This document shows, piece by piece, positions 52,181 to 53,819 of a DNA stretch of 64,000 bases (position 1 is its first letter; every line of letters starts with the position of its first letter). The stretch comes from Ascidia mentula (Eukaryota; Chordata; Ascidiacea; Phlebobranchia; Ascidiidae). Location of the stretch: the NCBI GenBank assembly GCA_947561715.1, contig OX387198.1, forward strand, positions 11,656,001 to 11,720,000. The letters are read 5' to 3'. The position numbers were made by a program, and so were the translations under genes. Below the pieces are notes generated by a model. That model was given only the letters and a program-made list of their open reading frames with translations, made no database searches and was not told where the DNA came from.

Positions 52181-52227
52181 ATCCTGTTCTTCACTGCCCA
52201 CTAGCGGCTTTGTTGAAAAACATTCAT
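52181..52227 (-). promoter_or_regulatory. Candidate SECIS element (form 2)
   Basis: In the 3' UTR, the minus strand reads ATGA, then a helix strand TGTTTTTC that pairs with GAAGAACA (8 bp, one G-U, possibly one more A-U), then GGAT. ATGA and GGAT supply the tandem G-A/A-G quartet of eukaryotic SECIS elements. The apical part has an unpaired A-rich AACAAA and a small GCC/GGC stem, as in form 2 SECIS. The helix is shorter than usual, so this is a candidate judged by eye only. Confidence 0.55.
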
Positions 52228-52465: not shown

Positions 52466-53819
52466 TTACTCTTTTTTTAATGTATTAATAATCCCTTGAA
52501 TGCTTGGGCGATCTGAAGCATCTTGACTTCGGTAAACCATTGAAAACACTGCACCATCACTTCCAAGTTTTGACAAAATAAAATCTCCACCTAACTGTGT
52601 GAAACATAAGGAGATAACATTTACCCAACATTTCTGTAAAGCCTTTTTAGCTGTATTGTCAATGAAAACTAAGATGAATAGAACTTTTGTCATTTGTACA
52701 ATTGCATCATATCCAGCAATGCCAGTTATATTTATGAGCATTCACTTATTGTCTTACTTGTTGTGGATCGTCCTGGATATCCGCAAACATCTGTGGAATA
52801 GTTTCATTACGTGCCATTGCAGCACCATAGTAAGAAATTGCCTCTGTGTGGTATGCCTAAAATACAAAACAAATAATACTACATTACCTTTGTATTGGCA
52901 AAAAGAGCAACAAAACTACACAATTCAAAAAATGTCATACCTTGGCAACAGAGCGTGGCAAACCTAAAGCAGAATATACTTTGCGATCGTTATCAATATA
53001 AAGCGGGAAAGGGTGATTCATTTCAGCCAACCACCTTTCAGCACCTTCCTTAACACCAAAAGTCACGAGCACAACAGAGCATTTCAGACTGGCCAGGTCC
53101 GACTGAAATCACATAACAACTCTTCAGAAATCAAATATTTAAGGTAAATTTGTGGAAAAAACTCACAAACGCTGCTTGGAGCTCTTTAATGTGGGTTCGT
53201 CAAGGTAGTCAAGCAAAATGCCGGAGTAGTATGACTAGACAATGTTGACTGTCACCAGCAAAGAAAACGCTGTTGTCCAAAGCAACAACTTGATCCGATT
53301 CAGCATCAACAACTTTAAATTTATTTGGAAAAGAATCACCATTTGTAAGTTGGGGTCCAGAAGAAATGCCGAGAGATACAGCTGCATCAATTTCAACTAA
53401 AAATTTATTCCACGATTCCTACAATGCAAACATAACATTGGTCAGCTTGGGCAAATGTTTGTAGACAATGTGCAACTTTTATAATTGCATGGTCATGGTG
53501 TACCTCAAAGTCAAGAAAATCCTGCACAGCATCTTGTACATCCAGGTTTCTATATGATTCCACCCATTTGTTTTCTACTGCTTTTCTGCTTGGTAAGTTT
53601 AAATCTAAACACAATTGCTTGTACAAACCAAGCAGTCCCAGTAGGACACCAAGCTTTTTTTCAACAAATATATCAGTGGATGGACAATCTAAAATAATAA
53701 ATGTGTCAAGAATGAGTTTACACTAAGCAAAAACATTTACCATTTAGGACGCCTTTGGCATTTTCTAAAACACTGCTTCCCTCTTTCACAAATTTGCTTA
53801 AGGCATCAATTAGAGGCAT
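52466..53819 (-). CDS. SELENOL: Selenoprotein L-type thioredoxin-fold protein with U-x-x-U motif (6 exons, 301 aa)
   Basis: Exons on the minus strand: 53819-53741, 53688-53504, 53418-53167, 53102-52941, 52856-52758, 52594-52466. Read through, the only in-frame stop codons are two UGAs at 53211-53209 and 53202-53200, giving HFA-U158-LP-U161-RTHIKEL, exactly where peroxiredoxin-like (AhpC/TSA, PRXL2) relatives carry C-x-x-C after a VLLRHF-type strand. Downstream are SLKCSVVLVTFGVKEGAERW, FPLYIDNDRKVYSALGL and GGDFILSKLGSDGAVFSMVYRS, the rest of a thioredoxin-like fold. The N-terminal 90 residues are helical (ALSKFVKEG, KKLGVLLGLLGLYKQLCLDL). Selenoprotein L is known to form a diselenide in a U-x-x-U motif and occurs in aquatic animals. 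A candidate SECIS and polyadenylation signals follow in the 3' UTR. Alternatives (pseudogene with two matching Cys-to-stop changes) are unlikely given open frames and intact splice sites elsewhere. Confidence 0.85.

Follow-up and report, generated by a model that had tools for sequence, protein, structure and literature searches.

The founding paper on selenoprotein L (SelL) is reportedly that of Shchedrina et al. (2007). SelL contains a diselenide bond and has been found in fish, invertebrates, and marine bacteria (PMC2397514; here and below, statements from the literature refer to excerpts of the papers cited), and diselenide bonds in SelL have been identified experimentally (PMC11007844). 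Its two selenocysteine (Sec) residues, two residues apart, are both inserted with a single SECIS element, and among vertebrates the excerpt places the protein in fish only (PMC3316567). Invertebrate occurrences include Amphimedon, Trichoplax, Nematostella, Capitella, and Branchiostoma, and amphioxus also has a selenoprotein W (SelW) with two Sec (PMC3473315). A study from 2010 knew the SelL of the tunicate Ciona from ESTs and, according to the excerpt, had not located it in the then-current Ciona genome data; Ciona SelW1 has one Sec (PMC2874816). Among the open-licence matches listed, PMC2874816 was the only one whose title pointed to SelL in a tunicate, which does not prove absence. A U-x-x-U form is listed for a prokaryotic peroxiredoxin (Prx)-like oxidoreductase (PMC13188914), and ocean metagenomes have yielded a Prx-like 2 family with U-x-x-U (PMC2398784).

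Here, we describe a gene in a 64,000-nt stretch of the Ascidia mentula genome (contig OX387198.1, positions 11,656,001 to 11,720,000; the window) that is almost certainly a tunicate SELENOL gene, in which two UGA codons would both be read as Sec by means of one SECIS, giving a U-x-x-U Prx-like oxidoreductase with a diselenide redox pair. While the family, an uncommon one, is already known, the complete exon map of a tunicate SELENOL, the SECIS candidate, and the species are new, against a tunicate background in which the 2010 study had Ciona SelL by EST but not in genome data (PMC2874816).

Gene structure and in-frame TGA codons

SELENOL lies on the minus strand and comprises six coding exons, with GT-AG boundaries at every intron. 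Exon 1 (53741..53819) opens with an ATG at 53819 and is followed by a GT donor; exon 2 (53504..53688) is flanked by an AG acceptor and a GT donor; exon 3 (53167..53418) carries both in-frame TGA codons; and the frame translation continues through exons 4 (52941..53102), 5 (52758..52856), and 6 (52466..52594), the last of which terminates in TAA (52468-52466). The joined frame of 906 nt consists of 301 codons plus this stop codon, and its only internal stops, across all 301 codons and six exons, are the two TGAs, located at 53209..53211 (minus strand; residue 158) and 53200..53202 (minus strand; residue 161). Both are predicted Sec codons and stand opposite Cys residues of aligned relatives. 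Beyond the second UGA, the frame and its homology extend for 140 further codons across three more introns. The translation and the GT-AG introns bear out an earlier note on this DNA, which had proposed six phase-compatible exons encoding 301 residues; the joined frame agrees with its placing of the only internal stops at residues 158 and 161, and the interval it had claimed, 53167..53418, is exactly exon 3.

If two stops fell at random among 301 codons, exactly positions 158 and 161 would be struck in 1 of 45,150 cases, an arithmetical figure that does not yet include the requirement that both stops be TGA. A search of the own genome (195.8 Mb in 79 contigs), in which the best candidates were scored, returned six matches with E ≤0.001, all of them SELENOL exons. 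Standard annotation is expected to end the gene at residue 157 or to split it.

Two other open frames were noticed in the window, both on the minus strand. The one at 54052-54477 matches DUF1358 (PF07096) and is presumably TMEM242; the one at 10122-10754 matches sperm microtubule inner protein 8 (PF22574, 5e-38).

Domain matches and the redox site

The predicted protein matches the Pfam family AhpC-TSA_2 over residues 168-280 (E 1.1e-11; 45.5 bits versus a cut-off of 27), as well as Pfam AhpC-TSA. In NCBIfam, a single model matches when hits up to E 1 are admitted: NF040769, SelL_rel_redox ("SelL-related redox protein"), which covers residues 144-297 with E 9.7e-33; the score of 113.2 bits lies below the curated cut-off of 120 in a profile library built for bacterial and archaeal genomes. 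Among chains of known structure, the top match is prostamide/prostaglandin F synthase (9us9, E 0.0067), whose CxxC aligns opposite residues 158 and 161.

The own genome also contains a Cys-type AhpC-TSA_2 paralogue on contig C69, which we take to be PRXL2B. It reads LRRYGCPVCR where SELENOL reads LRHFAULPUR, and its fuller stretch, LRRYGCPVCRWLAKNL, corresponds to LRHFAULPURTHIKEL. The paralogue is a separate gene, and the redox-site Cys characteristic of PRXL2-type proteins is replaced by UGA at both positions of SELENOL. Both the 9us9 and the C69 alignments confirm that the UGAs sit where Prx-like relatives have C-x-x-C. The comparison with AhpC-TSA proteins that the earlier note had proposed as a check thus gives a match above cut-off, and instead of the other residues at both positions that it had named as grounds for rejection, the aligned relatives have Cys or Sec at both.

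Bacterial U-x-x-U relatives

Scanning of bacterial and archaeal genomes with the DNA pattern YTNMGNCAYTTYGSNTGANNNNNNTGAMG yielded 70 loci, 13 of which align to SELENOL across 145-179 residues (E 2e-29 to 2e-18). Because U-x-x-U is present in the pattern hits by construction, residues 148-167 were masked, and 13 of the 70 loci were still homologous (E 4e-19 to 8e-8). One further locus, L040, aligns but was excluded from the 13 because its frame stops shortly past the motif. Twelve of the relatives are from Chloroflexi bins (SAR202, Dehalococcoidia, and others; L032, L053, L069, L073, L065, L030, L068, L080, L090, L070, L041, and L046), which may be marine, and one, 38% identical to SELENOL, is from a groundwater Acidobacteria bin (L044). 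An alignment was made of exon 3 of the window with 12 of the 13 relatives, L065 being omitted because of ambiguous residues. All three bacterial relatives tested against NF040769 pass its cut-off. Ordinary annotation is expected to end these SelL-like genes at their first TGA. The presence of UGA at both sites in lineages so distant from a tunicate counts against two chance stop mutations.

A domain-based search for related loci produced 25 pattern matches, none of which was confirmed, and a phage search with SELENOL found no match. The plasmid search returned seven records, all Thermus peroxiredoxin-like proteins (~27%). Four pattern hits in viral contigs, whose frames are 21 to 110 residues long, were rejected as chance: apart from one match of 4 residues, what aligns is limited to the surroundings of the motif (9 to 31 residues), and the best E is 3e-4.

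Selenocysteine machinery and other selenoprotein genes

Tunicates are marine, and the own genome contains the Sec machinery expected of a host of selenoprotein L: a tRNA-Sec scoring 79.3 bits, with anticodon TCA according to ARAGORN, exons of SepSecS (contig C72), and domain III of eEFSec (contig C70). At C67:14573566-14614697 and C71:16682881-16838509, clusters of hits score lower with the tRNA-Sec model (37-47 bits); they may be ordinary tRNA genes that have been amplified, or repeats derived from tRNAs.

Four SECIS elements of the same genome served as controls. Of the four sub-threshold Rfam SECIS hits, two follow TGA-bearing glutathione peroxidase (GPX) matches at a distance of 400-500 bases: at L100, a GPX frame with an in-frame TGA was read with the SECIS downstream of it, while the GPX match beside L022 has a TGA and also a TAG. 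The third control (L023) is preceded by a frame whose last residues are GCUG, presumably that of thioredoxin reductase, and the fourth, from a core-motif scan, follows the SELENOW gene (L111). The GPX gene at L100 and SELENOW thus each combine an in-frame TGA with a SECIS.

SELENOW itself (L111; G000:C52:6508339-6511557, minus strand; start at reverse-complement base 1483) has in-frame TGAs at residues 12 and 15 (FUGGUGYKPKY), making it a second U-x-x-U protein, with one SECIS ~575 bases past the start. Further likely selenoprotein genes of this tunicate are L100 and L101 (GPX with in-frame TGA), L109 (SELENOT-like), and L023. In a mitochondrial COX1 stretch on contig C79, AGA/AGG codons occur in frame 17 times, once upstream of the gene as it was read. 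This usage agrees with the mitochondrial code of ascidians (table 13) and so marks the host as a tunicate; many of these codons presumably stand at conserved glycines (GGFGNW, GTGW, GGGDP, PGFG, VGMDVD, and PTGVKVF).

A candidate SECIS in the 3′UTR

A core-motif scan placed a predicted SECIS core at 52181..52227 on the minus strand, where a hairpin ~240 nt 3′ of the SELENOL stop codon displays the layout of the four own-genome SECIS. Its parts are an ATGA, a 9-bp helix II, an AAA loop 12 nt past the ATGA, a small apical helix, and a GGAT. Just 3′ of it, the sequence reads AATAAA twice (52119-52114 and 52110-52105, minus strand), possible poly(A) signals. No Rfam family matched at gathering score in the 64-kb window, and the Rfam SECIS model RF00031 had no match at the SELENOL region with E up to 10.

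A scan by loose rules of our own had given 270 matches in 128 kb and was replaced, being non-specific, by the layout common to the four controls: ATGA, exactly 12 nt, AAA, a helix of 10-11 bp, and a GA partner. The controls fit this layout by construction, and the limit used for the search, a helix of at least 9 bp, is one below their 10-11 and was chosen with the candidate in view. On both strands of the window, the layout occurs once, as the candidate in the SELENOL 3′UTR, which is still the sole hit when the limit is relaxed to 8 bp; ATGA-N12-AAA by itself is found at 24 places. Of 20,000 dinucleotide shuffles of the 362-nt 3′UTR, 2 produced a layout hit. In the own-genome loci L001-L025 and L100-L113 (123,400 bases, overlaps included), the layout hits are the controls and the candidate only. 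The layout is an incomplete detector, because it has no hit in five TGA-bearing loci of selenoprotein families (L101, L107, L108, L109, and L110), the last of which has one candidate SECIS by a looser scan.

The candidate does not stand out by its folding energy (z -0.27, equalled by 73 of 200 shuffles), and that of the controls is also modest (z -0.57 to -1.66). In a MAFFT alignment of the four control SECIS, the 3′ arms came out misaligned. The 3′UTR SECIS expected of a selenoprotein L gene is predicted here.

Discussion

The gene model, its homology, the SECIS-like element, and the genes of the Sec machinery are observed. From these, and by analogy with characterised SelL, we infer that Sec would be inserted at residues 158 and 161. 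The ribosome would decode both UGAs as Sec, steered by the one SECIS in the 3′UTR and served by the tRNA-Sec, SepSecS, and eEFSec of the own genome. The product would be a thioredoxin-fold, Prx-like (AhpC-TSA_2) oxidoreductase with U-x-x-U in place of C-x-x-C, and its two Sec would cycle between selenols and a reversible diselenide, the redox activity of SELENOL likewise being drawn from the characterised proteins. The identification as a U-x-x-U selenoprotein L, which the earlier note had put forward, gains support from AhpC-TSA_2, from NF040769 (under its cut-off), from the bacterial U-x-x-U relatives, and from the candidate SECIS.

The two in-frame stops could also mean that a Cys-type PRXL2/SelL-like gene has turned into a decaying pseudogene through mutation of both its Cys codons to stops. 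A pseudogene would have to have kept 301 codons in six exons without any other stop or frameshift and with intact splice sites, to have acquired UGA both times and on both members of the redox pair, and to lie upstream of a SECIS-like element of the own-genome layout, while bacterial relatives have UGA at both corresponding sites; we give it next to no credence. That two chance stops on both redox cysteines are implausible, as the earlier note had argued, is upheld by the 1 in 45,150 figure together with these bacterial UGAs. Decoding might instead be partial, with one UGA alone read as Sec or frequent termination at the first, and yield mainly a single-Sec or truncated product. By general knowledge, it is demanding for one SECIS to serve two Sec three codons apart; yet both Sec of SelL are described as being inserted by a single SECIS (PMC3316567), and the aligned relatives have Cys or Sec at both positions, which makes mainly partial decoding improbable.

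The protein could also belong to a separate U-x-x-U Prx-like family that resembles fish SelL without being orthologous to it. In favor of this are the NF040769 score under the cut-off and the comparison with fish and Ciona SelL by description rather than by sequence. Against it, the sole NCBIfam match is the SelL-related model, two Sec two residues apart are the motif of SelL (PMC3316567), and SelL has been reported from Ciona ESTs (PMC2874816), so that we consider a separate family very improbable. A broader extension of the SELENOL reading draws on the U-x-x-U of SELENOW versus the one-Sec SelW1 of Ciona (PMC2874816): SELENOL and SELENOW might form a two-protein diselenide system, perhaps sharing a reducing pathway that land animals lack, and animal SELENOL might ultimately descend from a bacterial U-x-x-U gene. 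We regard this extension as unlikely, if somewhat less so than the alternatives above.

As a tunicate SELENOL, the gene offers a small, well-bounded case in which to study how one SECIS can serve two Sec codons only three codons apart. It also connects animal SELENOL with the U-x-x-U relatives of Chloroflexi. The earlier note had called SelL an established but rare family of aquatic animals. Established it is, but the Chloroflexi and Acidobacteria bins, together with the marine bacteria of PMC2397514, do not fit a confinement to aquatic animals.

Of the known systems, 9us9 shares with SELENOL a redox pair at matching alignment positions; its pair is C-x-x-C in contrast to U-x-x-U, and the overall similarity is weak (E 0.0067). 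The bacterial U-x-x-U genes and NF040769 have the domain, both Sec positions, and the LGGDF and DRP motifs in common with SELENOL, whereas identity in the aligned part is 28-38% and the bacterial frames have ~45-90 residues ahead of the first U (start codons not being assigned) compared with 157 in SELENOL. From selenoprotein L itself, no difference is evident where the animal SelL are set beside the present gene by description, not sequence: like them, it comes from an aquatic animal and combines a Prx-like domain, a U-x-x-U with two predicted Sec, and one SECIS, here a candidate, in the 3′UTR.
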